The notes under the pieces: generated by a model | Seen by the model: the letters and a program-made list of their open reading frames with translations, nothing else | What the model was told of the DNA's origin: nothing | The model's database searches: none | Translations under genes and position numbers: made by a program | Assembly: GCA_949317995.1 (NCBI GenBank) | Contig: OX439045.1 | Location: 45,279,693-45,343,692, forward strand | Length of the DNA stretch: 64,000 bases | DNA from: Acholoe squamosa | Lineage: Eukaryota; Annelida; Polychaeta; Phyllodocida; Polynoidae | Direction of reading: 5' to 3' | Shown here: positions 13,556 through 46,712 of the stretch, piece by piece | Layout: every line of letters begins with the position of its first letter | How positions within the stretch are numbered: the stretch's first letter is position 1

Positions 13556-14265
13556 CCTTTATGTGCCCAGAATTATTTGATGATTTTCCATTTATTTCAC
13601 ATGTACATCACCCCAGTGATGAAGACCATGTATATATAATTCTGAACAGGTATTTGATATGGAATTCACATGATGTACCTGGTTCTTTTTTACTTCAACC
13701 TTCAGTTAAGAGAGAAATTTCTGACTGAGTGTGGTTACCATAGCAACCAAAATGTTCCTTTTGTTGTTATTCATTAGTATATAGCCTCTTTAGTGCTGGC
13801 CTGCTCTAATCTCATATAGTGTGTGATATTTGCATTACTATACTCAACTGTACTACCAGGGTGCAAAATGTCTTGGTCACAGTTCATGACATCATTTACA
13901 TCGATATGAACAATTCCTATGAATAGATTAGTTGTAAGGTTGGCAAGTCTATCAAAAGTGTGGAAATAGGGGACAAATGATCCAGCATCACCTTGCTATC
14001 ATGCTAGATCCTATCTTCTTGGCCGATTCCTTTCCAAAGAGTCACATGTATGACAACTAATTTTCAGGTTTTGACTCACTGTGTCTGAGGTGATGGAGAT
14101 ACGGTCACATGGATGGTCTCATTGGAATAGGGGGGTCATGGCCGTTTTAATGAGTGTATAACTTTGCAGATTGGACCAGTAGATGTTCCTGGATGATAAT
14201 TTGCTTCAATGTGCATGTATTTAAGCCCAAAACCGCGCATTTAGGCGCGCTTGGGCACCTAAGGG
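13556..14265. mobile_element. piggyBac-type MITE, copy 2 (710 bp), inside gypsy pol
   Basis: It is flanked by TTAA at 13552-13555 and 14266-14269. The left end is CCTTTATGTGCCCAGAATT and the right end GCTTGGGCACCTAAGGG. It is the inverted orientation of copies 1 and 3. Excision with one TTAA joins VDVEVDAML to KKGVIERS in frame, the typical gypsy protease-RT linker. Confidence 0.9.
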
Positions 14266-15302
14266 TTAACATAGCGTCTACTTCAACATCGACGATTTCC
14301 CGGCGGTGGGGTGCCAATCGCCTAGGAGGGAGTTTCACCGGCGCGGCGGTCCCGGTGTCAATGCGGTGGGAGACTAGGGCAGTGTGCCCCAGTTCTCCCG
14401 GCGCTAGCTGAAATGCTCCCCTGCGGCGACAGAGCATGTCTACCCACTGTGCCCTGTCCTCCAGCGGGGACTCCTTCAGTAACTCCACACACCAACCAGG
14501 CGGTTCGCCTCCCCCTGGTCCGGAGCCCACGACCTGCACCGAGTCCTCCTGCTCCACCAGGTGGGGCATCTCTACTCCATCCAGAGTGGCCAAGTTCATG
14601 CCCTCATACAGTGTCACCGGGTCCTGGCCCGGATTGAACACCAAGATAGGTACCAGAGAATTGTCAGGGCTTACTAAGGTCCGTCCCACTCTGAATCCCC
14701 GATTCAGCTCCACTTCCCCTACGCCTTCCACCACACCTGTGCGTCCCGGCGCCCATGGCCCCTCCAACCGCCCCTCTATCAAAGTCTCCTGCCGACCAGG
14801 CAGCACCGTAGTCGTGTCACTCACCACCCTACACTTGGTGGTGCAAAACTCTGTCCACAACAGCCTTTCCCCTGCCAAGTCCACCACTGCCCTCTCCTGC
14901 CTGACGAACTCGGCCCCTAAAATCCCTTCCGCACTGATGTCCGCCACCAAGAAATTGATAGGCCGTTCTGCCTCCCCGCCGCTCAACAGTGTAGTTAACT
15001 TCCCCTCCACCTCGATGGGCGTGCCATCTGCTGTTGTCAGGCGGCCATTATGCTGTTGCAAGTTGCCAGGAGAACCAGCTCCATGCCACCACTTAGCCGA
15101 CAGCAGATTAACCGTAGCTCCTGTATCCACCAGCAGCTGTATGTCCCTACCCCACAGCTGCCCTGTCAATTCCAATCCGTTCCCGGTGCGCTCCCGGCGC
15201 CCTCGCCACTCCAACGGCCTAGCAGCTGAGGCCTCTTCCTGGCCGCCGGAAGAGACCCCTACCAGTTTCCCGTCACCTGATTCACCTCCGCCGGACGGTT
15301 AC
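14266..15302 (-). pseudogene. Gypsy pol N-terminus: aspartic protease and linker
   Basis: Pol here is in the -1 frame relative to gag; it is open from just after a TAA near 15300 and has no ATG of its own. The apparent 15214 start is a TTG. The active site is LLVDTGATVNLLS (Asp at about 15127). Flap and C-terminal protease strands follow (FLVADISAEGILGAEFVRQ, with the ILGxxF motif). The rest is the usual linker to RT, ending HRREIVDVEVDAML at the MITE boundary. It is probably expressed as a gag-pol fusion through the heptamer at 15265-15271. Confidence 0.85.
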
Positions 15303-16569
15303 TGGGACTCTCCCATGCCAACCGAGCCTTGAACTTAGGGCAACTCCGCCGGAAATGGCCCTCCTCCCCACACTCAAAGCAGCCCTTCGGCCGGGCCGAC
15401 GAGCGCGAGCGTCCGGTGCCCTCCTGGAACTTGGCCTCCACGGTGGCCATGAAAGCATCGAGCTTCGACTTCAACCAGTCCTCCATCCCCGGGCTGGGGT
15501 GGGCAGACATCGCAGACGGCGGATCGTCGACGGCCCTCACCCTACTGTCGGACAGCTGATTGTCGTCCAGGAAGGCCTGCCCCTCCACAGCCGTCTCCAA
15601 TGCCTCAGACAGCTTCCTAGGTCTCGTTTGAAAGATCCACGCCTTCAGCTGGGGATCCCTCAAACTCTCCAAAAACCGATCCTTAGCCATCGTATCCTGG
15701 GTAGCGGCGTCGGCGGCCGGGTAAGCCAATCGAGTGAGACGTGTAATGTCATCTGCCAGGATGTGGAGGGACTCGTTCTTTTGCCTATATCTCGTCCTCC
15801 ACAACGCCTTATAGCTTTCGACCTGGTTCGGCGGCTGGAACCTATTAACCAGGGCACCCCACAACTTAAAATACCCGTCGACCTCCGATGGGTTAACAGC
15901 CGAGAGCAACCGGCGTGCAACCCCCGACAGGCTAATCCCGAGAAAAACTCCCGCTTCCTCCAATGTCCAACGATTCGCCTTAACACACAGGTCGAAATGG
16001 GCCAAAAATTCATCCAAATTCGTCGTCCCATCATATTTACCAGGCATGACCGCTGGTTTCTCCACCCTCCTGTTATCACCGCCCCCTCCAGAGGGCCGGG
16101 ACCCCCGCTCCGACTGTCCACCTGAGGGATCTCCTGGTAAAGCCTGCCAGCCGTCCTCACTGCCCCGATCCTGACGGGGTTCAGGCGCGTCATTGTGCCC
16201 GTTCCTACCACCGGAATCCCGGCGATCTTGCGACACGCCTATTCCGTACTTTCTGACTGCCCCGGACGAACCTGTCTCCCCCTGTGGGTCCCCAGAGCTC
16301 CACGCCTGCTCCCCCGCCGAGCCCGCCAGTCCCCGCCTCCAAGACTCATAGACATCCCTGAACTGACTCTGAACCTCCTCCCGCCGGCCCGCCGGAGTCC
16401 CTCGTTTACTATTTCCCGGTGTCGCATCCCTATTATCGCCCACCAGGGGCCGTCTCAGCAGAACACCCTCTTCCGACATATCCAATAAACTCCCGCGCCG
16501 CCCGGCTCCCAAAGCCTCCTCTAAGCGCGCTCTAGCCTCCCCCGTCGCCGGGGTTTTCCTTGACGCCAT
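15259..16569 (-). CDS. Gypsy gag (436 codons), intact
   Basis: The ATG is at 16569. Residues 1-165 are low-complexity and charged. About 180-300 is the retrotransposon gag capsid-like domain (LDEFLAHFDLCVKANRW, FLGISLSGVARRLL, LWGALVNRFQPPNQ, KALWRTRYRQKNESLHILADDITRLTRLAYP). A single CCHC zinc knuckle CFECGEEGHFRRSC lies at 397-410 and binds element RNA. It is the only full-length open frame of the element. It starts 64 bases inside the 5' LTR boundary, so the leader is very short. It ends with TGG TAG immediately after a GGGAAAC heptamer. Confidence 0.92.
   Translation of the reverse strand: MASRKTPATGEARARLEEALGAGRRGSLLDMSEEGVLLRRPLVGDNRDATPGNSKRGTPAGRREEVQSQFRDVYESWRRGLAGSAGEQAWSSGDPQGETGSSGAVRKYGIGVSQDRRDSGGRNGHNDAPEPRQDRGSEDGWQALPGDPSGGQSERGSRPSGGGGDNRRVEKPAVMPGKYDGTTNLDEFLAHFDLCVKANRWTLEEAGVFLGISLSGVARRLLSAVNPSEVDGYFKLWGALVNRFQPPNQVESYKALWRTRYRQKNESLHILADDITRLTRLAYPAADAATQDTMAKDRFLESLRDPQLKAWIFQTRPRKLSEALETAVEGQAFLDDNQLSDSRVRAVDDPPSAMSAHPSPGMEDWLKSKLDAFMATVEAKFQEGTGRSRSSARPKGCFECGEEGHFRRSCPKFKARLAWESPSNRPAEVNQVTGNW
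15265..15271 (-). promoter_or_regulatory. Candidate -1 ribosomal frameshift heptamer GGGAAAC
   Basis: On the coding strand gag reads ..ACG GGA AAC TGG TAG. The heptamer G GGA AAC has the X-XXY-YYZ phase required for -1 slippage, lies one codon before the gag stop, and pol is in the -1 frame. GGGAAAC is a known functional slippery site in some retroviruses. A stimulatory RNA structure downstream was not modelled. Confidence 0.7.
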
Positions 16570-22251: not shown

Positions 22252-23283
22252 ATTGCCACTTGTATCAATTGGTCTAGCAGACCCCAAACTCTGTCAGAGT
22301 AGTATCTTGTTTACCCAGCATGTTAGGGCTGGGGAGGTGAGGGGAGGTTCTAGCTTCGAATATGACCCATACCTTCCTGTGAGGATTTACTATAGTTATT
22401 TGCTATGGTCATATATTGTGGCCATATACCCGTGCTCTGTAGCCATTTACCTGTGTTCTGAGAAAATCTAACCTACACACCCATATTGTTTGATGCAGAA
22501 ACTACTATTTATTTACAACTGCACAGAACACTGCACAATAAATGTATTTGACATGCCCGCCTCCACCTCAGGCTTCCCAGTATGGGAGTATTAGCCGTAC
22601 ATGGGTCGGCAAGTGCTCAGGTCATAGTAAGTACACAGAGTGAAGAACACTGATCACTTTGACGCATACTGCACAGGTCACAATTTGTCTCCCACATGAC
22701 ATGTATGAAGGCATGTCGAATGAGGTTGATGCTCTCATATTTGGTTCGTCAACTCCACTTGACATGCATAATGAAGACACGTCACATATTTCTGATCCGT
22801 TCACCTGAGTGCTAGGTAATACTCTGAGACAATTATGTAAGGGTCAAGAGCAGTCAATAGCTATGTACTAATGGTTCAATCAAGGCAGGCCTATAATAGA
22901 AGGCAGTGGATATCATAGTCCCACAGGCCTGCAACACTAAGGCACTTTTTCCTATCTACAGAACTTCTACTTGACTGAGGACCTCTATGCAGTCCATAAG
23001 ACAAGGGCATGGAGGTGCATGGCAATGCCATCTGTCTCCATGTAAGGAAGATACTGAGGTTATAGACTGTCGGTTAGCATACAATCTTTTGGTTTTTTCA
23101 CTGACCCAAACACAAGGTGTCTAACCTCTCCAGTTGAAGAATTAGGGATTATGGGTGTCTATTTTGATATTCAATAACAAATGCAAATTTAACAATGACA
23201 TAGAATTCACTACCATTCGTTGATAGTATTTACAGGACTTAGTGATCTATTCTTCATGAAAACAAATTGACACAGATACATCA
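22252..23283. other. Non-coding stretch, no gene seen
   Basis: Anonymous sequence between the SINE-like repeat and the LINE fragment. No ORF above background. Confidence 0.45.
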
Positions 23284-24275
23284 AATGTCTCAAGAAAGGG
23301 AATTGTAAACTAGTTACTAATCTTAGGCCTATAAGTCTTTTGCCCTTACCGGGAAAGATTTTTGAAAAAATAATGGCCAATAGGTTAAGAGGTTTCTTGG
23401 AGGAAAGGGATATTATGACCAACACTCAACATGGTTTTAGGCCAGGACGGTCCACATTAACTGCAACTACCACATACCTAAACTGTCTGTATAATGCCAT
23501 AGATAAGAATAAGGACACATATAGCCTGTTCTTAGATTATTCCAAGGATTTTGATACTGTGTCACATCCATTGCTGATAAATAAATTAAAAGACTTGGGT
23601 TTATCAAGAAATACTTGTAGTTTGTTCTCCAGCTACTTAACTGGCAGAACACAGAGGGTTGTGGTAAATAATTCTGTATCACAGGTAAAGGCAGTGAAGT
23701 ATGGGGTACCACAAGGGTCAATACTAGGTCCCATATTGTTTACATTATATATAAATGAACTGCCAACATGTTTCCCCTTGTGTTCAACAGTCTTATATGC
23801 TGATGATGCTGTGATGTCAGTGCATAATTTTGGACAGATGAGACAGATGGTTCCTGCTGTGAACCAATGGTGTTGTTCCAACATGTTGACTATCAATAAG
23901 GATAAAACAAAATGGATGCACTTTGGTCCAAATAGTGAAGATACGAATGACAACCAGGTTGATATAAATAATCAGCAACTAGAACGTGTTAAGGAGTTTA
24001 AATACCTTGGTGTATTGATAGATGATGAATTGTCTTTTGATAAGCAGAGGCAAAAAACCAAATCAAATGTCATGTTTAGGGTGCACCAGTTAGCAAAGAT
24101 TAGGAGATATCTTGATGTACCAGGTGCAGTTAAGTTGTATAAAAGTAAGATCCTACCAATATTTGACTATGCCGATATCATATGGGACAACCACCAAGCA
24201 ACATATGCCCAAGATTTACAATTAATCCAGAACAGGGCATTAAGAATTGATAAACATTTTAGAAGCACACTATAG
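23284..24275 (+). pseudogene. 5'-truncated LINE reverse transcriptase fragment
   Basis: The open frame from about 23290 reads KKGNCKLVTNLRPISLLPLPGKIFEKI, then TQHGFRPGRST, FLDYSKDFDTVSHPLL (first Asp; Asp replaces the usual Ala of SKAFD), YGVPQGSILGPILFTLYINEL, TVLYADDAV (YADD catalytic pair) and FKYLGVLIDDELSF. The thumb region ends QLIQNRALRIDKH, with a TAG at 24273. Endonuclease and ORF1 are absent and the C-terminus is cut short. It resembles the ORF2 at 41076-42345 more than the one at 44128, judging by DNxCxxFxSYxTGR-type and LYADDA motifs. No intact neighbour element. Confidence 0.88.
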
Positions 24276-26288
24276 TCTAAAATGTGCCTGATCAATAGTG
24301 TTCTTCTTAGCAATTCAGCAAATCAAAAGATAAACAGCAATGTCATCATTTTATTGCCACGATTTCTATATGTATCTTCCACCTCCGCTCAATTTGCTCG
24401 CCATGCTGAGCTGATTCGTTTTTTTCCTATATATTATCTCCAGTTTCAAAACTGATAACTGCTTAATCAATACTCCATTACGCTAGGAGGAGACAGTCAT
24501 GTACTGCTATATGAACTCGCAAAATTCATGTTCTATGATATACCAAATATTCAGAACTGAAATGCCTGGTTGTATGTAGCTTTATCAGTCATGTTTGTTT
24601 TATACAGATTAAAAAGTCGTGGAGAGATTAAATGACTATACATATTCAGATTGTGTTTTCTGTGCCTTTGTTTGTTTTGTCCGGTAAGATGAAAATAAAA
24701 ACCCACGCATACGCCATTGGTATATGCATGAGACCCATTGCGTTATTCCCCTAGGGGAATACGACTCAACTCGCAATTTATACCTTTAACCTAGCCTTCA
24801 TATTTTCGTTACTGATATTGATACCCCTTCCTGTATTTCCTAAATGTACTCAGAATGGATTACATTATATCAAAGGGGTTCTTTGAATTAGAGAAAGACG
24901 TCCAATGCTATTTTTGGATCGAAATTAGATATTGGTTGTGATGTCTGAGAACGAATCCTTTACAGAGGCCATTTTCAAGGTTCTCTATTCTCTCAGATCT
25001 ATTTTGAACTCTACATAAGCTTCTTTAGAAAGCATAGATTCGGTGCACTTCGGATGTCAGTCTAAGTGATAGGACCTGTTCCTAGCCTTTCACCACCAGT
25101 GCAGAACCATAGCCCATACGACTTAGCAACGTGGTAGTCTTAGTGCCTCATTGCAATAGCATCTCTGCATATTCATAATCAAAATAATATCTCTATTCCG
25201 AGACCACATACTGTTGGTCGACATTGCTGTTCAATAGCTGTGATATGTGATGTTAAAGTGAATATATCAGTCAAAGAACATGAATCTTTCAAGTGGTTTA
25301 TGTAGCTTTTCCCCGAAATTTTATTGTCGCATAAAAGTAGATTTTTCGCCAGCAGTATTGCAGATATACCTCTACTAGACTAGCCCAGTTAACACAGAGT
25401 GAATGACTTAAGGTGGCTGGCGAGGATTGTTAGTTCACCATTTGGACACCAGGAGTCTCCTGCACTCTATTGAAATTACGTGAACCCTTTCGAGGAGAAA
25501 CGGTATGATCGGAAGTGTGTTCCTGGTACCGGCGAAAGTTGAAAGTTTACCTGCTCATATTTAACAAGCGAAATTGGCGCCACGTTAGCGCTTCTCCCCG
25601 AAAGACGTAACCTTGAAATTATGAGAAACAGAGGCAGCTGGGGTAGGGGATTTGGAAGGTACCATATAATCTAGATACATGTACCTATTCTACCTATTTC
25701 CCTTAAGAAAAATGTTCAATCATGGAAAAGATTAGAAATATGCCTGGGACCATATGTCAGAACTATACTCACTGCAAAGATATGCATATAATCCAAGTGC
25801 TGAGGAAATTATAAGAGAATGTAATTACCGTTGGATAAGAATCTGTGGATTTATGTGACATATTGCTGTATAATCCTATATGGTACTAAATGTTCTGTAT
25901 CACAGAAATATGCCTGGGACCCCCACATTTTTATTGCATAAATGAACAGTTCATATCATTTTGGGATTCTAGTGATAATATGGCGAAAAACTTCATTACT
26001 TTTATTCTATCCCCACTAGGTACCTTAACCCTTTTATACAGGGTAATCTACGGGGGAAGGTAACACATGTTCGCAAAAGGTGGAGGTAACAGCCTGTGCT
26101 GATGCCTCTACTATTCAAGGTGAATTTCCCTTTCTCGTCAGAAGCTGAGTTCTATGACCTACCCTGCTTAGTAAGTGACCTTTCTAAATGGTGGGCACGA
26201 GTAAAGGGCCCCAGGGATCGTGCATACTTGTAGGTAAGGGAAGGGCTGGTTCTACTCGTACAGGAACCCTTTTAGAGCTCATTAGACC
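24276..26288. other. Non-coding stretch with a 16-bp palindrome
   Basis: No gene seen. ATTCCCCTAGGGGAAT at 24745-24760 is a perfect palindrome. Otherwise anonymous AT-rich sequence. Confidence 0.45.
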
Positions 26289-28759: not shown

Positions 28760-29260
28760 ACAAGATTACATTGAGGCATTAAGTCAGTATAGAAGCCACC
28801 ATAAGACTTTTAGCAGAATTTTTAAAGATATTATGGTCATTCATGTTTCTTTCCAATACACTTAATGCATTTCAGGCCTGAGCACTTAAAACCATTGGAG
28901 AATTTGCAAACGCTGTGCATTTGGGAATCGGATAGCATAATGCTGGGGCTTGATTTAGTCTAGTGAGTCTAACTGCTGGTTTAACAAATTGGGCATGTTT
29001 CTATCTCTTGTGTGCAAAAGTCTTTATATGGAATACTCTTCTCATTTCAAGAGTAGGAAGTAAGGCGTCTATGTGGATTTGAGCTGAGGAGGTGAGGATA
29101 TGAAGAGATAAGCAGGTTTTGATACACTTGTTCCGCATGTGTTGCAGTTCTTCCAGGTGGAACCCTTATATAATATGTCACAATAATCGATAACTGGCAA
29201 CATATAACTTTTGTAAATTTTCAATCTATGGCTACTATGGCCACCCATGCTTCTAATGTG
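28760..29260 (-). pseudogene. C-terminal remnant of LINE ORF2
   Basis: On the minus strand, shifting frames give YMLPVIDYCDILYKGS, then LEELQHMRNKCIKTCLSL, TLEMRRVFHIKTFAHK, VRLTRLNQAPALCYP and NMNDHNIFKNSAKSLM. This order (P-x-x-[DE]Y, LQxxxNKCI, RR..H/F..., Fk..lk) is the standard region after the RT thumb in CR1/L2/Jockey-type LINEs. Multiple frameshifts. No catalytic residues remain. Confidence 0.6.
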
Positions 29261-29604
29261 TAGATGTCAATCTGAGATGGGCCCTGGTTCATTTAAGAAA
29301 AAGATTTTAAAGTTGGCCGACCAGTGGGGAAAATTATATGACATATAGGCATACTATTAAACCGTTAGCACATATGACGCTGGTATATACCTGTGAGAGA
29401 AAACAAAATTGAACAGCTGATCTTTTGATTGTCTTGACCCACTGCTGTCATTATAAGGGTCTACCGCGTCCAAAATAGAATAATTATAGTGCTAAGTCAA
29501 CAGCATCTCGACAGATTTGGAAGTGCATAAGGTCAATGAGTTAAAATGTATGTTCATTTCACATAGGAATATTTAGGCCTTGGTTAGGAAAGTCAATTGG
29601 TAAT

Positions 29605-30810
29605 TTAGACTGGTGTAGCCTGTAGGTTATTTGTGACCTGTTCCTCCTGCTCCTCAAGTTCTTCATCACCAAAAGTATCATGTTCTTCAAGATCACTATC
29701 ATCTCCATACTCAGCATTCTCTGAATCGTTCTCTGAATACTCATCATCTTCATTCCATCCCCCATCTCTATCATAAGAGATGGGGGATGTTGTTCTGTCC
29801 TAATCCTTTCCAGAACTTTTCCAAGGAGATTTTTAGCCTTTAGGTTTCCCTGATAGCAATGTTTCGCTTGCCCTAGGTGGTAGCTACATGACCAAACAGG
29901 GAGGAAAGATGCTTCATATAAGTGGCCTTCTGTTTTCTGTAGTGCATCTCTACAAAAGGGTACGCTGAATTTTGCTTTGTTTATACAGTACATTATGCCT
30001 TCAGCTCTTTTGGACCAGTCAACTCCTTGTTGAACCTGTTTTCCCAACTCCATTATCACATAGGGGCACGAGGCACTCATTATGAGCTCTTCAATATCCT
30101 TTCTTCCATTTATCCTTGCCTTTATGCCTTGGAAAGCTTGTTCAGATGAATTGTAAGATACCCCCTCCACCGTAAATTCTACTGGAAACAGGTTAGATAG
30201 GCGATTATGTTGGGATCTGAACATGAGACCGTCGTCAGTGTACTCTGTCGTTGCATTTTCAAGATTAATGTCCAGCAATGGGATTTTGTTGAGCATGGCA
30301 TGTGTGTAGGACTTTCCTTCTATTATAACATATTTCTGGTGTTGCTGGCTGTTGTAGTTAAGAGATTGTGCGAGGAAGTGAATGGATCTTAAGTCAGTGA
30401 AATTACATTGTTCCTCTGCTGTTAACTTGTCGCCAATAGATACTGACCTCGATGTATCATTATTTTTCAGATTTTTGAGCAGAGACATCACTTAAGGCTT
30501 GGTGGTAATCTTGTGAAAAATCACTTTAATAGGGCGAATGGTGGGCTTCTTAGCCATACAGTCTTGACCTTCTGTAGGTGCTGAGCCTTCCCTAAACTTT
30601 GAGTTAATAGTGTCAACACCAACTTTGGCCCTGATGTCTATAAATAGCTGTGCTATTACCTGGGGTAAGTCTAAGTATTTCTCCTCTACTCCTTTGATGA
30701 TCAGAACCTTCTTATTGTAGTTGGCTTAAAGCTTCTCAAATTTAGCAGAGTGATCAGTAAGGACTCGAGTCTGGGCCTGAGCTACTACTGTCAAGCGCTT
30801 CATAGTTTTT
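29605..30810 (-). pseudogene. LINE ORF1, RRM-like plus NADAR domain plus acidic tail
   Basis: The RRM-like part (30745-30500) reads NYNKKVLIIKGVEEKYLDLPQ ... RPIKVIFHKI, interrupted by two TAA stops. From 30491 the frame is clean: CTD (VSIGDKLTAEEQCNFTDLRSIHFLAQ, YVIIEGKSYT), then NADAR at residues about 88-232 (30230-29796). NADAR motifs are GLMFRSQHNRLSNLFP, YNSSEQAFQGIKA, VDWSKRAEGIMYC, KAKFS, HLYEAS, a lone Trp at 200, and LKAKNLLGKVLERIR. After Thr232 a 1-base shift leads to a strongly acidic tail (WNEDDEYSENDSENAEYGDD) ending in TAA at 29605. The NADAR family (YbiA/DUF1768) includes N-glycosidases for ADP-ribose-linked substrates. Frame damage makes this copy inactive. Confidence 0.8.
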
Positions 30811-31144
30811 TCCGTTTCAGATAGTGTTGCTGTCATGCCTGAGAGTGTACCCTCTGTATACCCGACGTGATTGGATACCAGTTAAAGTTTTTGTAGTGTT
30901 TTTACAAGTATTCTCCAATTTAACCATCGTTGACTTTACCTTCTCTAGAGTTGTAAGTAATCCATAGTTTTTTTTCCTCAGTGTCACTGAAGCGTTGTCC
31001 CAGACCATTGACAGATTTGATTATGGCTGTTAGGCTAGCGTCCGGTGGGAGCAAATCATTTCGTCTTCTATCTCTGCCACTGCCCCTCATTTGGCGAAGT
31101 TCATCCACCTTTTTATCATATGTGTATAGTCTTGATTGTAACAA
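30811..31144 (-). pseudogene. N-terminal coiled-coil part of the same LINE ORF1
   Basis: The minus-strand frame from 31144 reads YDKKVDELRQMRGSGRDRRRNDLLPPDASLTAI and changes frame at a run of A residues (T-run at 30967-30974). It continues KVKSTMVKLENTCKNTTKTLTGIQ, a heptad-like region, then TATLSETEKTMKRLTVVAQAQTRVLTDHSAKFEKL in a third frame. Coiled coils at this position drive trimerisation in RRM-type LINE ORF1 proteins (family knowledge). Confidence 0.55.
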
Positions 31145-31317
31145 GGGAAAAGCAAGGTATCACCCATTTGTTGACATAACTATACCACTAGTATGTAACC
31201 TGTGATTTGTCAATAATATTACTTCAAACCTTGAACCTAGTCAGATAGCCACAGATATATACAGCTACTTTAGATGCCTTGAGCAGCTTACAATACACCC
31301 CAGTGCTGAGGAGACCT

Positions 31318-32416
31318 GGAGGTTGTTACACAAAGATTGAACTCTCGTTGTTGAAAATCCTCTTAAATCAACGATTTTCACTAAGTGATTATTTTGTACC
31401 TGTTACACAATAGGTTCTGCCTTTTCACAACGAGAATCGTTGTTGCTTTCTCGTTGTTGCACTGGGAACCAGTGTAACTTGACCTACTTAGGCAACAACG
31501 AGATTTTTGCCCATTTTCGGTCCCATGATATCTCTGATGATTCCTGTTGAAAATCCTTATTTCTAGTCCGATTTACATGCTGTAAAGTTTCACATGGATG
31601 CTTTAACATCTTATCTACCTAATTACAATGAGAAAACAGGGACAGATTGTAGATTTTCTCTGAAAATCAACACTGAAATCACGAAACGGTAGTTCCCACG
31701 ATTTCCGCTAGATGGCTCCACATTGTTATTTGAACCTACAGAGACCTCTTTGTGCAACTACATTAACCTAATAGTATCTCACGGATGTAATAGGTTTGAA
31801 ATAGCTTGAAGAAGTGGGGAATAATCAGATGAAGTCAGGAAATTAATAGGAGAGATCAGAAATGACCAGAACAAGTCATGAAATTAATAGGAGAGATCAG
31901 AAATGACCAGAACAGGTCATGAAATTAATAGGAGAGATCAGAAATGACCAGAACAGGTCATGAAATTGATAGGAGATCAGAAATGACCAGAACAGGTCGT
32001 GAAATTAATAGGAGAGATCAGAAATGACCAGAGCAGATCGTGAAATTAATAGGAGAGTTCAGAACAGATCGTGGAATGAATAGTAAATAACCAGAACAAA
32101 ATAAGGTCAGAAATTTTCAAGGTAGGCCTTAGAATTAACATAGGATGTCAGAAATAGCTACAACAAAGGTCCCCATAGGAACCAATGCTAAAGATGGAAA
32201 AGGCAGTACCTCTGGAGTAACTGCTTTTTTTTTCTCGTTGTTGACATTAAAGATAAGCCACAAAGACTTTTGCATAACGACTTTTTATTTGTGTAACACT
32301 TTTTTTCTCTTTGTGAAATTCTACCCCAAAAATCACAACGAGAAAACATTTGTGTAACGGTTTGGAGTATCAACAACGAGAATTGGTCTATTCTCTTTGA
32401 TTGTGTAACGACCTCC
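31318..32416. mobile_element. TIR element of about 1.1 kb with internal 41-bp repeats
   Basis: Left GGAGGTTGTTACACAA and right TTGTGTAACGACCTCC are inverted repeats with one mismatch over 16 bases. TCTCGTTGTTG blocks recur just inside both ends in inverted orientation. No coding capacity. Target duplication not obvious (AGACCT left, TGTGGT right). A non-autonomous DNA transposon is likely; superfamily unknown. Confidence 0.7.
31836..32075. repeat. 41-bp tandem repeat, about 5.5 copies
   Basis: GACCAGA recurs at 31864, 31905, 31946, 31985 and 32026. The unit is close to GAAATTAATAGGAGAGATCA + GAAATGACCAGAACAGGTCAT. Confidence 0.9.
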
Positions 32417-36419: not shown

Positions 36420-37048
36420 GACAGTTTGTAAACATTGCCAGTGGTGAACAGGTTGACAGGTGGATAAATGAGTTCAGGAATAGAAAGACACACGCTACCA
36501 CAAAAGATGTTGATGAGGGCTGGACTAAAATAACAGACATATTACAGGCAATGCAAACTACACTCCATGACACAAAGATAGAGGTTGGAGAGGTTAGGGG
36601 TGACATTGAAGAGAATAGGGATTTGAAGGAATCACTCAATTTTGCCCATGATGAGATTAAGAGGCTCAGTAAAAATGACACCGAAAACAAAGGCAGATTA
36701 GATGCACAGGGTGACTACATTGATGACCTATCTAGAGAAGTCAACTTTACTAAGCATGACATTGTAAGTAATAAAGAGGCTATTATAACCTTGGATCATA
36801 ACACAAGGAGGAAGCATGTAGTTATAGAAGGTGTAGACTACTCAAAACATGAGAACTGCCACAACATAGCTTTCGACATACTAGTTAAGGTTCATCCAAA
36901 CCTAACATACACTAGCATTAATCTTGCATACAGAACCGGCCCTATAACATGGCGTAATAGGCCCATCACTGTGACCTTTTTAAGAGCAGAGGTTAGGGTC
37001 AAAATTATGACGTCTAAAAGCAGGCTCCAAAAGCTGCTCGATACCTAG
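36420..37048 (+). pseudogene. LINE ORF1 N-terminal half: coiled coil and RRM-like domain
   Basis: The frame opens at about 36420 and the first ATG is at 36551. The upstream EQVDRWINEFRNRKTHATTKD is probably also coding. Residues to about 75 are helical and charged, followed by a heptad-like NDTENKGRLDAQGDYIDDLSREV. The RRM-like part is RRKHVVIEGVDYSKHENCHNIAFDILVKVHP, INLAYRTGPITWRNRPITVTFLRAEVRVKIMTSKSRLQKL, matching the NNLVIxGI... and RPIxVxF..... xVkxxIm patterns of LINE ORF1. One TAG (37046-37048) separates it from the next half in the same frame. It binds element RNA (family knowledge). Confidence 0.75.
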
Positions 37049-37867
37049 AACATTTTCGTCTCAGAGGATACAAATCCGACCATAAAGGCACAGAAATCAG
37101 ACATTAGGATGATTTGTAAACTAGCATCTATCGCTGACAAACAAATTTCACCTAAGGGTTGGGGGCTTGTATATCAGGGTAGATTCTACCACCACAGTAC
37201 CCTTTCTGACCTCTCTCATGATCTCAGACTCAAAAATGCACGTACAAGAGTAGGGAATGACTTTGTCGCATACCATGGCCCACAGAGCCCATATTCAAAC
37301 ATTTTCAGTCGTCTACTAGAATTGGATGGTATAATTTATTGCTCAGTAGAGCAAGCGCTGTGTGCAGAAAAGTGTAGAATTGTAGGGGTTACAGCTACGC
37401 CAGAACAGGTGCTCTCTTGTGCAGACCCTTTCGAGGTCAAGCGCAAGGTGAAATCGATTACAATCCCTGATTTGCAGAACACCACAGAAGACCTACTGTA
37501 CAGGTATAACATATGTAAGTTCAAACAAAACAAGAGCCTTAGGGCAATCCTATTATGTGACCAAAGGGTCAACAAGCAATTAGTTGAAAGTACGCCGGAC
37601 CCTGTATGGGGGAGCCAGTGTGCTATTACGAGCAAGATGATTGCTGACAGATCATTTAAGGGTCAAAATAGAGGGGGGGCGGTACTTGAAAAAGTGTGTG
37701 CTGAACTACTAAGGCGCTACCCACCCCCACTCCCACCTCCAGGACCAACACCAGCGCCAATCCTGGTCCCTCAGCCACAACAACAGTCACAACCAGGGCA
37801 AAATCTGAACCCAGTGCCACCACAGCCTGCATTCCCAACCCCCGACCAAGGAGCACCTCAGGGTTGA
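37049..37867 (+). pseudogene. LINE ORF1 C-terminal half with NADAR domain
   Basis: It continues the frame after the TAG: NIFVSEDTNPTIKAQKSDIRMICKLAS (ORF1 C-terminal domain). NADAR follows, counting Met 37109 as 1, at residues about 48-205 (37250-37723): VAYHGPQSPYSNIF (SxxSN), GIIYCSVEQALCAEK, LLYRYNICKFKQ, NKQLVESTPDPVWGSQ, FKGQNRGGAVLEKV. These match the NADAR signature blocks (SNF, EQxxQxxK, KF, ExxxxxxWG, GxNxLGxxL), with Trp of the WxxxR..iM block missing. The C-terminus is Pro/Gln-rich (PPPLPPPGPTPAP). It ends in TGA. The parallel protein at 29605-30810 aligns block by block. Confidence 0.85.
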
Positions 37868-38348: not shown

Positions 38349-38709
38349 ATGGACCTGATGAGTGAATGCTCTGAGGTAAATGATTTCAGCCAATATAAAG
38401 GGTTGAAGTTTATTGGTTTTAACATATGCAGTCTATTTGGGAAAACTATTAAAATCTCATACACTCTTCCAGATGCGGATGTAATGGGTGTCTGTGAGAC
38501 ATGGCTAGACAGGCATCATGATACATCAATGGTATCATACCCTGGCTATAATATTATAAGGCTGGATCGACACTCTTATGTTGATAAAGATTGTGGCAGA
38601 TTACTTTTTTTTATGTTAAAGAGGACTCTATCATAACTTAATGTCCGCTTGAATCAGCAATAACTCCAAATTATAAAGTTTTGACTATTGACCTAGAGAT
38701 TCATAAAGC

Positions 38710-38745
<36 letters not shown>

Positions 38746-39287
38746 GTTATCCTAGTCTACAAGCCCCTGAGGTAGGAAATCAACATGTTATTGACTACTT
38801 AATTAATCTACTTAATAAAACTGTACCCACTCGAAAGATTGTAACTATGGGAGATTTTAATATTGATTTACTTACACTGTCTGACATAGATAAAAAAACT
38901 ATTAAGAAAAAAACTAATGTTAATGGTCTTAAGCAGTATGATATTATTACAATCCCAACAAAAGTAAAAGGTATATCCAAAACCGTTACTGACCATATGT
39001 ATACAAACTGTGATTATATGTAAGTCACCATGATACAGTTAATATTTGCCTGAGTGATCACATGCCTGTGTTTCTAATCTTAAAATGTGAAAGAAACAAA
39101 ATTCCTAAGGAATTAAAACCATTAGGGTGTACAGAAATTTTGATATTAATGTCTTTCACCATGACTTTTGCAATAGCAATTGGGTTGACTACAACTATCA
39201 CAAAGATGTCAATGGGCTATGCTCGATTTATATGGCTAACTTCCTTAAAGCATTAAGTGTTACAGCCCCCCTGAGGAGGACATATGT
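38349..39287 (+). pseudogene. LINE ORF2, APE-type endonuclease domain
   Basis: KGLKFIGFNICSLFGKTIKI (Asn motif), DADVMGVCETWLDRHHD (catalytic Glu in ETWL), PGYNIIRLDRHS, then after a (TA)n tract at 38712-38744 and frameshifts PEVGNQHVIDYLINLLN, VTMGDFNIDLL (GDFN), TDHMYTN and LSDHMPVFL (SDH). These are the metal- and phosphate-binding motifs of exonuclease-endonuclease-phosphatase LINE endonucleases, which nick the target DNA to prime reverse transcription. Several frameshifts and stops. Confidence 0.85.
38712..38744. repeat. (TA)n microsatellite inside LINE ORF2
   Basis: About 16 TA dinucleotides in the endonuclease region, disrupting the frame. Confidence 0.95.
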
Positions 39288-39747
39288 GACCCATCCTAAC
39301 AAAGTGGTACTGAAGTCGCACATTTAGAAGCCTAGATATAGGCTTCTCAAGTGGTATAGTGTCAAAAATATCATATTTTTTAAAATTGATATTTTTACAT
39401 TTTTCTAACCTATGGGTAGATATCTTTCAGAATCCTTGCCTACTAAACTGAATTTAAGCCCCAAATGCCTAGAAGACATAGCTATAGTTTTCTTGGTTAT
39501 ATAGAATTAAATGGGAATTATATAGGATTCATAAATTATTATATGTTTAAAATGTCAATTATCTCAGTTTAATCAATTTTTAATTCATCCGACTAAATTT
39601 ACAGACGAAAGATCCTTAGAGGACCACCTGGTTCAAATAGGCAAGTGTTATATACCAAATGAAAGCTCTTCATGAGCTGTAAATGAATATGCCAATAACT
39701 AAACATTTTGTATGTGCGACTTCCATACCATTTTGTAAGGATGGGTC
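39288..39747. mobile_element. 460-bp MITE in LINE ORF2, 8-bp flank ACATATGT
   Basis: ACATATGT occurs at 39280-39287 and 39748-39755. The ends are inverted repeats of about 35 bases beginning GACCCATCCTAACAAAGTGG on the left and GACCCATCCTTACAAAATGG on the reverse-complemented right. Removing the insert and one flank copy joins PLRRTYV to SVDEPEWLTNEI in frame. Because ACATATGT is itself a palindrome, the exact duplication (8 bp or shorter) is ambiguous. Superfamily not assigned. Confidence 0.82.
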
Positions 39748-40324
39748 ACATATGTGTCAGTAGATGAGCCAGAATGGTTAACAAACGAGATCATAGGTGC
39801 AATGAGGCTCCGTGACAATGCTTATAAACAAGCCAAGCTGTACAATGACCCAGGTAACAGGGCTGTTGATGATATGTTTGCCAAAAGAGTTGACATTGCT
39901 ATTGCTGTTAATAAAAAGAATACCCTGAGCAAGCTGCTGGAAAAGCATAAAACTGATCCTCATGAATTCTGGAGAGGTGTTAGAAAATTGCTCCCCAAAT
40001 ATAAAGGTGTCTGTATAAATCAACTCATTGATGACGAGACTGGGTACAAATATGGTCCCGCTCAAATCCCTGATTATATCAATAAATTTTTCACTAAATT
40101 GGTAAAATACTTCCAGATGTTTTACCCAAGGTATTATATAGGAGCAATATATCACCAATACATATAAAGCATGACCTACTTTCTACTCTGTTTGATAAAG
40201 ATGAGATCAAAAAAGCTTTTGTTGAAATTGATGTCACTAAGTCATCTGCTATCATGAATATGAAATCCTCCGTCATTAAGCAGTTATTACTTTGCGACTG
40301 TAGCAAGCTTACGGTGATCTTTAA
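39748..40324 (+). pseudogene. LINE ORF2, region between endonuclease and RT
   Basis: The frame reads VSVDEPEWLTNEIIGAMRLRDNAYKQAKLYND, then KKNTLSKLLEKHKTDPHEFWRGVRKLLP. This is the usual linker (PWxtxel...R...k.a......W..i). After a frameshift near 40105 it continues STLFDKDEIKKAFVEIDVTKSSA up to the MITE at 40325. Confidence 0.8.
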
Positions 40325-41039
40325 TCCCTTCGTGCCCAGGTTTATTTTGAGAAAGCTGGTTTATTTAACAAATTTGATATAGTAGAGGCTATTACCTATA
40401 TTATGTCCAGATTACAGTACTGATTCAAATGGTAACAAAGAGGGCAGTAAAAAAGGTTTCAGAAAATGTAATATCAAACATAGGTTAGAGTATTATATTA
40501 GTCAGTAAGGAATGATGATGGCACAAAAAGTTGAAAAGGACTGATTTGGATGAAAGTGCCCAGAATATCAATTTTTTTCCATTTTTGTGGGTAATAGGCT
40601 ATTTCCAACAAGGAAAGTGTTATTTTGACATTCCAAACAGGGCCATATTGATGGAAAGTGAAAAAAATATGCATCATAATTGGATTCCTCACGGAAAATC
40701 ACTTGAAAAAATATTATTTTATCAATATTTTTGGGATCTTCATTAATATTTCATGAATTTAATGAATTTTCCGTATTTTCCCTATATTCCCATGGCCAGA
40801 AAGTGCACTTATTATGTATTTTAAGCCTATTTCTAACCCCTTATTTTCTGCAATAGGACCTATTAATCATTACCTACCTAATACACTATGACAAATTTGG
40901 TATTGTTGGAACGCCCTTGCAATTATGAGTCTTCTGGTGTTAAAATTATCTTAATCTGATTAATATTACCCCCATGGTGGTATGTTGAACATATATACAT
41001 GCTTAAGAGCACACTTTTGCTAATCTGGGCACATAAGGG
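40325..41039. mobile_element. piggyBac-type MITE, copy 4 (715 bp), in LINE ORF2
   Basis: It is flanked by TTAA at 40321-40324 and 41040-41043. The ends are TCCCTTCGTGCCCAGG and CTAATCTGGGCACATAAGGG. The terminal repeats match the other three copies, but the interior looks different, so this is a separate subfamily. It separates the linker from the RT domain. Confidence 0.82.
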
Positions 41040-41043
41040 TTAA

Positions 41044-42345
41044 TAAAATCACTATTAGATGCAAGATTTCCTGATGTGTGGAAACATGCCATTGTCACCC
41101 CCATACCAAAGAAACCAAATAGCAAATCTGTGAATGATCTAAGGCCCATAAGCAAACTCCCACTACCTGGCAAAATTCTTGAAAAATTAGTTATTATAAG
41201 GCTTAAAAATTATGTGGAAGGCAAAAACTATATCACTTGTGCCCAACATGGTTTCAGGAAAAATCACTCTACATTATCTGCTGTTAGTGCTTACTTGGAT
41301 ATCGTTTATGAAAACTTTAAAAATAGGAAAACTACCTTCTCTATCTTTATTGACTATAAAAAGGCATTTGATACTGCTCCCCACCCCATACTAATACAAA
41401 AATTACCTGATTATGGACTTAGTGACAATACATGTGATTGGTTTAAGTCCTACCGGACAATTAGGAATCAGGAAGTTGGTGTGAATAACAAACTTTCTAA
41501 GACCTTGCCTTAAAAGTATAGAGTGCCACAAGAATCAACAGCAGGTCCTATTTTGTTCATTATCTATATAAATGACCTGGTGAAGCAGGTAGGAAACTGC
41601 AATATAGTCTGATGATGCTGTGATTTCCTCCACTGATCCGAGGGAGCTACAAGTTTCTTTAAACAAGTTGTCAAGTTGGTGTATTATGAACAGTCTTACG
41701 ATAAATCAGATAAAACACAATAGAGGTTCATTGGCCCACCACTGGCCATACATCCCAATTTCTATATGAGGGGAGTACAACTGGAAGAAGTACAAACCTT
41801 CAAATATCTTGCTGTAATTTTAGATAATAACCTATCCTTCAATAAGCATATTAATACTGTATATGATAGGGTAAAAACCAAGGTTATACAGTTAGCTAGA
41901 ATGAGAAAGTATACAGATGTTAATACTGGTCTGAATATCTATACTAGCACCATTCTTCCTCATTATGACTATTGTGATGTAATCTATGATGACAACTGTA
42001 AGGACTAACTCAAAGACTTGCAGCTCCTTCAAAACAAGGCATTGAGAATAGTATATAATGTAAGGGTTGGACCTTTCCCAAGCATGACCACTAGACAAAC
42101 TCATAATAGGGCCAAAGTCAAAAGTCTGAGAGAGAAGGAATATTCACTTAATTTACTATGCCTATGATCTAAAACTTAATGTTGATATCATTGACAATAG
42201 TGATTTACCAACCAGGCGTTTCGACAGTATGAGGTACCATTACACTCGCATCAAACATCCTGTATATGGTAAAGCAGGCAAATTTAGAGTGATAAACTGC
42301 TGGAATAACCTGTGTGCAAAATACACTAATATTCTGGAGAAATAA
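41044..42345 (+). pseudogene. LINE ORF2, reverse transcriptase and C-terminal region
   Basis: DARFPDVWKHAIVTPIPKKPNSKSVNDLRPISKLPLPGKILEKL, AQHGFRKNHSTLSAV, FIDYKKAFDTAPHPILIQKL (first Asp), a stop at 41512, YRVPQESTAGPILFIIYINDL, then a broken YADD region (sequence near 41610 reads through a stop into DDAV), FKYLAVILDNNLSFNKHI, MRKYTDVNTGLNIYTSTILPHYDYCDVIYDD and LQLLQNKALRI. The C-terminus is RRFDSMRYHYTRIKHPVYGKAGKFRVINCWNNL. It reverse-transcribes element RNA at the nicked target. Dead by stops and frameshifts. Confidence 0.9.
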
Positions 42346-43929
42346 TTACTCAAATTGTTTTATTATACCAATTAATACAGACTGGTTCAGACTGGTCTAT
42401 GTCCTTAATATTGCATTCTATAGTCATTTAAGGTATGACATATGGTATTACCACAGTTATTATGGATAACTGACATTTACGCTCGAGACTGAGGTGGGCT
42501 TTTCTCCTATGATAAGAGGTTTTTTGGCAATGTAGTTACTATGTCTGATGTTCATACTTTGCACACTTACATATTTTGCATTATATTTATCTTTCTTTTC
42601 AAAACACCATGTACTAAGTTGAATTCTCCAGGCACAGTATTAGATCTCTCCCTCATGGCAATTTTCTTTTGCATCCCTCTTTCTCTGCTCCTATGTTGAT
42701 GTCATCGTGCTAACATTGTGCTATAAGACTTTGGGTTACCTTTTCTGCTCCATTATGACTTACAATCATTATCAGCGCCTTATAGAGGGAGTAGCTCTGG
42801 TAGAATACTAATGCACCCAATCAACAATCATAAGTCTGGATTATAGGTTACCTTTTATTGAACATTCCATTTCCAGGTGAAGATACAATCCATAATCACA
42901 TTAACTCCTGTTGTGGTGTATTAGAGTTCATCCTAACCCTTAACATAGGTATATATTTCAATTGCATGTCGACCTCATGTCTGTGTGTGTGTGAGACCTC
43001 TGCCGGTAACCACTGAGGTTTAAGTTACAGCTTTATCTAACACTCGTAATCCTACATAGTGCTACTGATGATACAGCTGGTGCACTCTCCTATTGGATTA
43101 ACTCCGCGAGTATATCGCCTAGTTGTCGACCCTCTAGCTTCGTGTGTTATCTTACTCCAATAATAATATATCTCTTCCTTTATCGTCCTTTATGTGTATC
43201 CCTCTGTCCCTTTACTAGTGCATTATTCTTCAGGTAGGGACGCCTTATGCCCCTGATAACTTATAATCATACTTTGGCCCAGTTTACTACCTTGGGCCGC
43301 TTATGCTGGTAGTTACATGTAGGTTAATATTATCTTATTATTATGCTAGTTGTAAGGTGCCTTCTTATTCTCTGACTGTACTACCTTTTGGACAAGCTCC
43401 CTGGCTGGTCGGTGTAGGTGGGAGGGTGTATGGTATATCCTGTTTATGTGATTCTTCTAACCTTTACCAATCTCTTTTTATCTTGCAGGTGTGGTTCTCC
43501 CCAGTCTTCTTTCACCTCTATGTTAATCCTTTATGGACCATGCTAACTCTTTATGGATTGCAGTCTACACTTATGTACATTATTACATTTAACACTTGTT
43601 ATTTACAATAAACCATTTCTAACTACTCTCCTCTTATACTCCCTTGCACAACATCAATATATGTCTAGAGGCAAGAGAAAGGGTGCTCCGTGCTAAAGTC
43701 AACTTTAAAATTCAGATCACTAGCTTTTGCAAGAGAAGATACTCCTGTTAGTCTCAGAGGAATGGCTTGCTAAATATGGGTAGTTATGACCATTTCCTGA
43801 ATGGCAATAAGCTCTACATCTAATTGGTCATGAGATACATCTAGAATTAGCATTTTCATTCTAAATAGGAAAATCAATGATCTCATTTAAAGGAACTTTT
43901 CACGGGGTTTAATATGGTGAAAACAGAAT
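42346..43929 (+). other. Probable LINE 3' untranslated region and flank
   Basis: No coding motifs. CAATAAACC at about 43607 could be the polyadenylation signal of the upstream LINE. A 102-codon frame at 43303-43611 has no recognisable domain. Some GTAGTTACTATGTCTG sequence near 42530 recalls 4490-4530. Confidence 0.4.
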
Positions 43930-46712
43930 GAAAATACCATCTCTAGATCAAAAGTTGTTGTCCCCTATAAAGATATTGCTGATTACATAAATCGATATTA
44001 TGCCACAATAGGTAGCAAAGTCTACGAGCACCTTATAAGGGATGAAGCAATCCCAGTTAATATTCTGGATGAAGACCCTTTAGAGTTTGAAAATGCTGAT
44101 AACCTAGACGGCCTTGATATTGATCATTTGATAACTCATGACACTGTATCTATGATGGTTAATGCTATTTGTGTTGACAAGTCCTCCGGCATTGCAGCGG
44201 TAGGTAGTCGCCCTATGAAGGACGCATTTGAGTTACTAACTAACCAATTAATCACACTGTTAAAACTGTCCATAACAACGGGGAAATTCCCTAAATCATG
44301 GGCGTGTGGAACACTTGTCCCTATATCAAAAAAGGGTGATACAACCAAAATTAAAAACTGGAGGCCTATTACATTGCTACCCCTACCAGAAAGGCTGGTA
44401 GAAAAAATTGTTTACAAAGTTGTTAGTGACCATTTAGGAGATAACCTCATTCTGCATAAAAATCAATATGGTTTCCGACCGGGCAGAAGTACCAGCGATG
44501 CTGTAATGCATGTAGTTGAAGATCTGTATACATCATGTGACAATAACCATGTAACAATAGCATGCTTTGTCGATTATTCTGAAGCTTTTGATTCTATACA
44601 CCACCCTACTCTAATTACGAAGTTAAATAGACTACATATACACCAAAATATTAAAAAATCGTTAAGATCGTTTCTATCCTCCAGACAACAATGTACGATA
44701 GCCAATGGTGTACTCTCTAGACCAGCATCAGTGGATTTGGGTGTGCTACAGGGTTCCACAGTCTGTCCCTTACTTTTTGCATACTACATTAATGATCTCT
44801 GTGATGCCCTGACAAATGCTGAAGTTGTATTATATGCGGACGATATTGTGCTATATGTGAGTGGTGAAAACTTTGATGAAACCTGTATAAAAATGCAAAC
44901 AGATCTTAATTCCTTCCACCAATGGTGTCCCCGCAATCACATGACGGTCAATGTTGAAAAAACAATGATAATGTTATTCGGTACTAAACACAGGCTAAAA
45001 CAGCTAGGCAACCCTGAATTGTATATGGGCAATAGTGTATTGCCAGTAACTGACAAGTACTGTTATCTAGGTGTCGACTTAGATAGCTCTTTAACCATAC
45101 AGCCTCATATCAACAAAGTTAAGAAGAGTATGGGCAACAAACTATTCAAGCTCACAAAAATTAGGAAGTTTGTTCATCAAGAGGACTGTCTTAAAATCTA
45201 TAGATCTGTCATCTGTCCTACATATGATTATTGGAGTTTTTATACTGGTGGTGGCCCGATCAATGAGCTAAATAAGTTACAACGGCTACAAAACCAAGCG
45301 ATTCGGATATGTTGCAAACTGCATGTAAGGGGCAATAGTATTGCAGAAATGCACACAATGAATTAGTTGGACATGTTAGAAACCAGACGGAAGCGACAAC
45401 TACTGATTATGATGCGGAAGCGCTAAAAAATCGACAACTTGATTCTGGCACATGCTGCTAGAACACGGGGCGATCCAAAGGTGAAGTTCAGAATTCGCAG
45501 AGCAAGAACTGCATGCTATCAGCGAGGACCATTTTACAGAGGAGTGAAGGCATGGGACGAGCTGCCTGAGGCGCTCCAGAAAACACCAACGCTTCATGAA
45601 TTTAAACGAGGACTGCTATTGCACATGAACGCATAAACTCTACAGACTTTATAGCACAATATCATTCACTATGGTATGAACGACACAGCAAAGACCTTAG
45701 CTATTGCAGCCATCTCTACTTAACTCTTCCATTACCAGAGTATTTTAGGGCAAATTTTGGCTTGTAGTATGTGGTGTGACCTCTCAAAAACTGTTAGAAT
45801 TGTGTGAAAATTCCAATTAGAAAGGAAATTGTGATGGATTAAGCCAGGCTAGTTGATCGGAAAGTGCAATACCCACATTTTCTTTATCTACATTGCATTG
45901 CTGAGAAATGTCTGACAAATGTGGTGTTCTGAGGAGAAAATTTCATCATTCAACCAAATTTCAAATTATAATATCTCAGCACTCCCTGTATCAATTGTAA
46001 TGAAATAAAGTGCATATTGTAGGAAATATGAAGTATTTCTGGAATTGTGCTAAATAAGGATATTTAGAAAAAGTTCTTTTTGGTTACCAAAACTATGCAA
46101 ATTCAGGATTTTAGGATATCTGTTGCCATGGTAACCAACCAAAATTACCAATAATGCATCAAAATACACTGAAAATTTTGATATCATTTTGTTCAGCATG
46201 AAAAAATGTACAAAAAAGATTTTCACCAAAAAAATAGTGTTTTCTGAAGTTTTTCATGATTTTTAGCCTAAATATTGATTAAATCTGTGGAAAACTTTTG
46301 AGGTGATATTAATTTATGTCTCAAGTTTGCAAGACTGCCATATAATAAGTATCAGAGGTAGAGACTAATTCTTTGGGCTCTGTGGAAGACCCAACTCCAC
46401 CTGGGTCTGGTAAAAAAATCTAGGAGTTTCAATGGATTTTGAGGGAGTAACAGAGTACTCAAAATTGGTCAAAAATCGGCCAAAATCGGCCCAAACTACG
46501 CATAAATGCGTAATGGGTAAAGGAAGAGTTAATTATTAAATACAAATTACCTATTGTGTTCTTCCAAATTTCTAAAAGACAAGATCCATATACCTTGGTA
46601 GATGACTTTACTTGTATTCTGTTCTTCTGCTTGAAATGGCCAAACTGTACGCTGAAAAACGCCACCCTATAATGGCGATTCCATGCAATAAAAAGTATCA
46701 ATCAATCAATCA
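43930..46712 (+). mobile_element. Third LINE, 5'-truncated, with (TCAA)n tail
   Basis: It contains the end of the endonuclease-RT linker, a near-intact RT and C-terminal region, then about 1 kb without coding, ending GCAATAAAAAGTATCAATCAATCAATCAA (46684-46712). A short tandem tail instead of poly-A is usual in CR1/L2-like elements. The 5' part including ORF1 is missing, as typical for incomplete reverse transcription. Whether all of 45640-46680 belongs to the element is uncertain. Confidence 0.75.
43975..45636 (+). pseudogene. LINE ORF2 (RT) of the third LINE
   Basis: The frame from about 43975 (DIADYINRYYATIG) runs unbroken to a TAG at 45364. Motifs: VDKSSGIAAVGSRPMK, GKFPKSWACGTLVPISKKGDTTKIKNWRPITLLP, NQYGFRPGRSTSDAV, CFVDYSEAFDSIHHPTL (first Asp), LGVLQGSTVCPLLFAYYINDL, VVLYADDIVLYVSG (YADD), KYCYLGVDLDSSL and LQRLQNQAIRICCK. 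Further C-terminal sequence follows in another frame to 45636 (RTACYQRGPFYRGVKAWDELPEALQ). The RT core looks catalytically intact, the best preserved of the three LINEs. The endonuclease is missing. Confidence 0.92.

Follow-up and report, generated by a model that had tools for sequence, protein, structure and literature searches.

What might a NADAR N-glycosidase domain be doing at the end of the ORF1 protein of a retrotransposon? The question is raised by a 64,000-nucleotide stretch of contig OX439045.1 (hereafter the window) of the polychaete Acholoe squamosa, whose assembly comprises 1.48 Gb in 63 contigs. The window holds a plus-strand copy of a long interspersed nuclear element (LINE) whose first open reading frame (ORF1) encodes an ORF1 protein (ORF1p) with a coiled coil, an RNA recognition motif-like (RRM-like) region and a C-terminal domain (CTD), followed by a NADAR domain. 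A second copy lies on the minus strand. The initial annotation had proposed that NADAR was fused to a LINE ORF1, and this was confirmed; the analysis also supports NADAR being a module of such LINEs rather than an accident of one copy.

A search of the translated region against the NADAR profile, PF08719, gave significant scores for both window copies (54.1 and 59 bits) compared with the curated cut-off of 35.1 bits, and the predicted structure has the YbiA-like fold that marks the NADAR superfamily. A phmmer search of the PDB with the window ORF gave no match. In the plus copy the structure-based bounds of the domain are 37229–37729 (Pfam envelope 37319–37708). In P. nicotianae NADAR numbering, its active-site Glu (E43) is encoded at 37349–37351 and its Lys (K50) at 37370–37372, followed by the last-strand Glu (E125) at 37586–37588, an Asp (D130) at 37598–37600 and a Trp (W133) at 37607–37609. 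In the P. nicotianae NADAR (8bau), E43, K50 and W133 touch ADP-ribose and D130 is a ligand contact (PMC11543638). Hydrolysis by the E. coli C7 NADAR requires K95 and D171, the latter in the E125 place; its E88Q variant is inactive and its E88A variant nearly normal in vitro (PMC11543638).

The equivalents of E43, K50 and E125 were Glu, Lys and Glu in both window copies and in all 20 members of a genomic sample, class A, that is described below; eight motif positions, including these three and W133, were invariant in class A. In a wider set of 66 sequences, with gaps set aside, conservation was 52/52 for E43, 51/51 for K50, 44/44 for W133, 40/45 for E125 and 38/43 for D130. Both window copies have Glu, neither Asp nor His, in the last strand, which is the rule for the YbiA subfamily (PMC11125620). 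The plus copy shares its fold, its E43, K50, E125, D130 and W133 positions and the YbiA-type Glu with stand-alone NADAR/YbiA proteins (8bau; E. coli YbiA, 2b3w), whereas these proteins have no LINE ORF1 fusion, the E125–W133 spacing is shorter by a single residue in nearly all LINE domains compared, and class A has no Asp at D130. Judged by its predicted fold and most of its active-site residues the domain could be a working enzyme, and a role as an ADP-ribose eraser is plausible.

The ORF1 frame of the plus copy runs from 36422 to 37867 (+), the stop codon lying within the end coordinate, and has its first in-frame ATG at 36551. Alignment to intact ORF1s and other relatives placed the coiled coil at approximately 36509–36805, the RRM-like region at 36809–37045 and the L1-ORF1p-like CTD at 37049–37228; a proline-rich tail follows the NADAR domain at 37730–37864. 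An in-frame TAG at 37046–37048 interrupts the frame, and at least two relatives have an open frame at this position. Relatives include P0002 (511 aa), from another assembly, whose predicted fold comprises an L1 ORF1p, with coiled coil, RRM and CTD in order, and a NADAR domain. Human LINE-1 ORF1p (2yko) shares the order of the first three domains with the predicted fold of P0002. The human protein ends after the CTD; here NADAR follows it.

Downstream of ORF1, the second frame (ORF2) of the plus copy is broken. An N-terminal endonuclease-like (APE) remnant lies in two frame pieces at 38349–39020 (+); it had no endonuclease Pfam match of its own and was recognised by tblastn similarity alone (38397–38648, to class A ORF2 N-termini). 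The reverse transcriptase (RT) and C-terminal part, also in broken frames, occupies 41037–42164 (+), with an RVT_1 match of 7.1e-16 on 41037–41510 and tblastn similarity to class A ORF2s at 41052–42140. Between these parts lies a probable small transposon at 39280–39755 (+), with exact 18-base inverted ends (39280–39297 and 39738–39755), and a second possible one was seen by eye at about 40320–41040. A target-site duplication was looked for and none was found. The plus copy is a dead LINE retrotransposon copy.

The minus-strand copy also has broken frames. The N-terminal part of its ORF1, with the coiled coil and RRM-like region, is broken (30495–31159, −); its CTD and NADAR lie at 29562–30491 (−; PF08719, 8.7e-16) and have relatives that are 78–91% identical, many with open frames. 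Positions 30857–29790 are 77% identical to the ORF1 of one of these genomic loci (L051). A C-terminal remnant of the ORF2 RT was identified at 28782–29227 (−) by tblastn of class A ORF2s (43–83% identity); most of this copy's own ORF2 is deleted, and its family has many open genomic copies. The homology between the two window copies covers 209 residues, extending upstream of NADAR, at only 25% identity, and they therefore belong to different families.

Searches of the genome indicated that such ORFs are abundant. The PF08719 search gave 3224 first-look candidates, and the best 150 were scored, all of which (150/150) were above the cut-off; two of these are stand-alone NADARs. With the minus copy as query, 2914 candidates yielded at least 128 matches (the query among them), and many of these were 78–91% identical and had frames near 520 aa. 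The search with the plus copy gave at least 101 matches, with 89 of 3662 candidates scored. A few matches are common to the three lists, some are pieces of one copy and many have open frames. Among the plus-copy matches listed, 53 were at least 67% identical and represented at least 34 places (self included), after pieces of single copies had been joined by hand; these were mostly broken or partial. A further 47 were 30–36% identical, starting at residues 52–117 and ending at residues 434–478, and 40 of them were stop-free. The last was one short piece at 53% identity.

Class A consists of 20 loci (L040–L059) chosen for long ORF1 frames from the minus-copy matches, and represents the minus copy's family and nearer subfamilies. 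ORF1 was open in all 20 loci (458–524 aa), and all 20 had same-strand ORF2 similarity downstream of ORF1. In 8/20 loci ORF2 was open for at least 925 aa, and the four open ORF2s scanned all had RVT_1 (1e-32 to 2e-36); each also matched an endonuclease family with a score better than the cut-off. Two loci were 99.15% identical over 5314 bases. Some of the related elements in this genome are intact and recently copied. The class A ORF2 motifs GVPQGSILGPL and LNARSIRNK resemble a CR1/Jockey-like type, rather than an L1/Tx1-like one.

Selection was measured in class A as pairwise NG86 ratios of non-synonymous to synonymous substitution (dN/dS), using domain pairs with dS of 0.15–1.2. The ratio for NADAR was 0.05 (29 pairs) versus 0.38 for the tail (70 pairs), which served as the internal control; the pairs are non-independent, saturated pairs were omitted and the loci had been chosen for open frames. 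The coiled coil (0.08, 41 pairs), RRM (0.11, 40 pairs) and CTD (0.02, 35 pairs) also had low ratios. NADAR is under strong purifying selection in class A. Together, these data directly support the domain, its predicted fold and active-site residues, the LINE context, the amplification and, for the minus copy's family, the selection. The reading of the locus as a chance ORF, a pseudogene of the host or a fusion that arose just once, in a dead copy, to which the broken window copies might have pointed, has a negligible probability and was rejected, given the genome-wide matches, many of them open, the ORF2 downstream in 20/20 loci, the purifying selection, the relatives in other assemblies and the separate grouping of the stand-alone NADARs L012 and L013 (both below).

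Relatives were present in other assemblies: 65 proteins were retained from 7993 candidates scored, and 64 remained after P0067 had been removed before counting. P0067 (812 aa, from another source) joins NADAR to an ADP-ribosylglycohydrolase domain (PF03747). Thirty-three of the 64 spanned RRM, CTD and NADAR; 16 spanned the RRM but less than 30% of NADAR, and may be fragments or NADAR-less ORF1s; five had NADAR without the RRM, and the remaining 10 fitted none of these three groups. A class A ORF1 profile matched both 8bau (2.1e-12) and YbiA (1.9e-5), and had no match to L1 ORF1p at E ≤ 0.1; it gave a colinear hhalign match, with a probability of 99.8, to the group of P0002 (class B). When just the NADAR piece served as query, the protein search gave no match, probably because its length window shuts out full ORF1s, and scans of viral contigs and of bacterial genomes gave stand-alone NADARs only (5 and 3 loci) or no match.

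Three further classes of ORF1-NADAR were distinguished in the genome: class C (L015, L017, L019, L023 and L025), class D (L020, L028, L030 and L031) and class E (L022). In the five full-length class C rows the W133 motif has no Trp, a possible change of activity. The class D proteins are ORF1-like, 572–774 aa long, and combine a coiled coil and NADAR with a C-terminal SGNH/SASA-like region; the C-terminus of L030 had a weak SASA esterase match (0.0034, below the cut-off) and no match of note in the PDB. In another class D copy, L060, the first 114 codons were 97–100% identical to the class D ORF1 end, and a 1043-aa ORF2 (RVT_1, 1.2e-29), 26% like that of class A, lay downstream. With class A queries no ORF2 was found beside classes C and E within their 3.4-kb loci, so we infer the LINE nature of these two classes from their ORF1 form and copy number.

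The RT piece of the plus copy matched L1 ORF2p (1.3e-4) and a second protein, which we take to be R2-type (7.6e-4), in the PDB, and these matches left its clade undecided. In a 12-row RT tree it grouped with another RT of the window, at 23340–24275 (95/98), apart from classes A and D. It therefore appears that ORF1-NADARs are accompanied by at least three types of RT, with the plus copy and class D represented by one locus each. Further LINE RT ORFs of the window lie at 23271–24275 (+), the nearest to the plus-copy RT, and 43921–45366 (+), each with RVT_1 at about 1e-34.

A tree of the NADAR domains firmly joined the minus copy to class A (100/99), and class C (100/99), class D (100/100) and the pair L012/L013 (100/99) were equally firm. 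Support for class B, which leaves out P0054, was lower (92/98), and the tree did not resolve how the classes branch at depth. For an earlier tree, an approximately unbiased test did not reject one clade of 39 relatives and both window copies (p 0.21; p 0.39 with P0054 added), the groups having been named once the tree had been seen. The spacing from E125 to W133 is 7 in nearly all LINE domains compared, P0054 being an exception with 8, whereas it is mostly 8 in stand-alone NADARs and 9 in one phage protein; this difference came to notice only in hindsight, and the pattern used to score it gave wrong readings for P0031 and P0049 in one tally and failed in another on L006–L009, L014 and L023, which were left uncounted there. 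The spacing favours a single origin for most of the LINE domains, although it could recur, and a single NADAR capture by all the LINEs is a possibility. The stand-alone NADAR ORFs L012 (1483–1998, −; 171 aa) and L013 (1333–2016, −; 227 aa) are probably host genes; in the tree they fall together with the NADARs of phage, viral contigs and P0067 (93/95), apart from the LINE classes. A 134-base stretch of the window, 25479–25612 (−), is 100% identical to L012 1091–1224, in the flank of the stand-alone ORF on another contig, and is probably a short, young dispersed repeat.

The initial annotation had taken the fusion to be undescribed as a LINE module, which the literature does not support. A 2025 report placed YbiA-family NADAR domains in the ORF1 of several Crassostrea gigas Tx1 LINEs and in the Pol of Ectocarpus Gypsy elements, and suggested processing of RNA intermediates (PMC12477816). 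The C. gigas elements (Repbase) are, like those here, animal LINEs with NADAR in ORF1; in the accessible text they receive a one-sentence mention without analysis of selection, copy number or ORF2 (PMC12477816). They are set apart from our elements by description, not sequence, and may be identical to them. The Ectocarpus Gypsy is likewise a retrotransposon that captured NADAR, but it is a brown-alga LTR element with the domain in the N-terminal Pol and with mostly bacterial matches, for which the authors suggested possible horizontal transfer (PMC12477816). Animal RNA viruses also provide a parallel of an ADP-ribose-processing domain on an RNA-based animal parasite, but these NADARs are viral and part of a polyprotein with an RNA-dependent RNA polymerase (PMC9503650). 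In the literature within reach, which excluded subscription journals and Repbase, we came across no listed title on the selection, the ORF2 context or the NADAR-esterase form of NADAR LINEs. New here are the selection, the intact ORF1-ORF2 elements and the several ORF1 and RT types.

With regard to function, we consider it the likeliest reading, though no better than an even call, that NADAR on ORF1p strips ADP-ribose from the guanines of element RNA, complementary DNA (cDNA) or target DNA, keeping the template readable. In such a mechanism ORF1p would coat the element RNA, host ADP-ribosyltransferases would ADP-ribosylate guanines of this RNA, of single-stranded cDNA or of target-site DNA, the NADAR domain would take the ADP-ribose off, and the cleaned guanines would leave the template readable for reverse transcription. 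An eraser carried by an RNA-coating protein would be well placed to keep guanines clean in all three. NADARs reverse guanine ADP-ribosylation in DNA (PMC11543638), and all those assayed took ADP-ribose off guanosine in RNA, with no action on phosphate ends (PMC11833690). Some animals can write the mark: six edible clams had N2-guanine transferase activity, and CARP-1 was purified from one (PMC11209040).

Several observations weigh against guanine clean-up by an active NADAR. The D130 place in class A is His in 17/20 and Asn in 3/20, with Asp in 0/20, despite the strong selection on the domain. In the minus copy this place is Leu, the plus copy is missing both its W89 equivalent and the G78 position, and the five full-length class C rows have the W133 motif without Trp. 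Selection was measured, and intact ORF2s were seen, in class A, whose ORF1s are only 18–22% identical to the plus-copy ORF1, and the enzymatic activity, the substrate and the counter-defence role are what we infer rather than observe. Other NADAR substrates are riboflavin intermediates and, perhaps, soluble ADP-ribose derivatives (PMC9503650). The DarT-type pairing raised in the initial annotation had no counterpart: DarT (PF14487) had 0 matches in the whole genome, in a search whose control was positive in 1/14 genomes, so that no DarT1-NADAR toxin-antitoxin arrangement was found and a DarT partner was rejected.

Were NADAR instead an active hydrolase of protein-linked or soluble ADP-ribose, it might silence host NAD/ADP-ribose antiviral signals or, within the particle, de-modify ORF1p and host factors. 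Such a role, too, would predict the active-site conservation and selection seen here, but a domain joined to an RNA-binding protein suggests a nucleic-acid substrate, and the NADARs assayed acted on guanosine bases and spared phosphate ends (PMC11833690); we consider this explanation unlikely. A third possibility, which we regard as quite improbable, is that NADAR reads ADP-ribose, anchoring the particle where nicks or chromatin are ADP-ribosylated, and steering integration. Poly(ADP-ribose) is present at LINE integration sites. The ADP-ribose contacts of 8bau, E43, K50 and W133, are kept, and the non-Asp D130 of class A and the Trp-less class C would suit a reader, but E43, K50 and E125 of the last strand are nearly always kept as well, and the corresponding residues of the E. 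coli C7 NADAR matter for hydrolysis. Varied accessory domains occur on ORF1 proteins, and the activity of NADAR here is predicted only, so the domain could be a structural or RNA-binding add-on with mobility independent of catalysis. This is very improbable, as a dN/dS of 0.05 and invariant E43, K50, E125 and W133, compared with the relaxed tail (0.38), exceed what folding alone seems to need.

NADAR roles in eukaryotes, including animals, have been described as unclear (PMC11125620). The retention of E43, K50, E125 and W133 at a dN/dS of about 0.05 suggests that ADP-ribose on something met by the particle limits LINE mobility. We tentatively extend the guanine-eraser interpretation, with more doubt than belief, to an arms race across the whole genome of an animal over the ADP-ribosylation of nucleic acids, in which several LINE lineages of differing ORF1 and ORF2 types carry a NADAR eraser, one of them with an esterase-like domain. 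If this speculation is correct, the host ADP-ribosylates guanines of retrotransposon RNA or cDNA and the elements reverse the mark, and nucleic-acid ADP-ribosylation would be a candidate anti-transposon defence in animals.

Elsewhere in the window, a probable Gypsy-type long terminal repeat (LTR) retroelement with gag-, protease-, RT- and integrase-like ORFs was recognised by eye at 10856–16569 (−), and a tandem array at 31770–32105 repeats a unit roughly 41 bases long.
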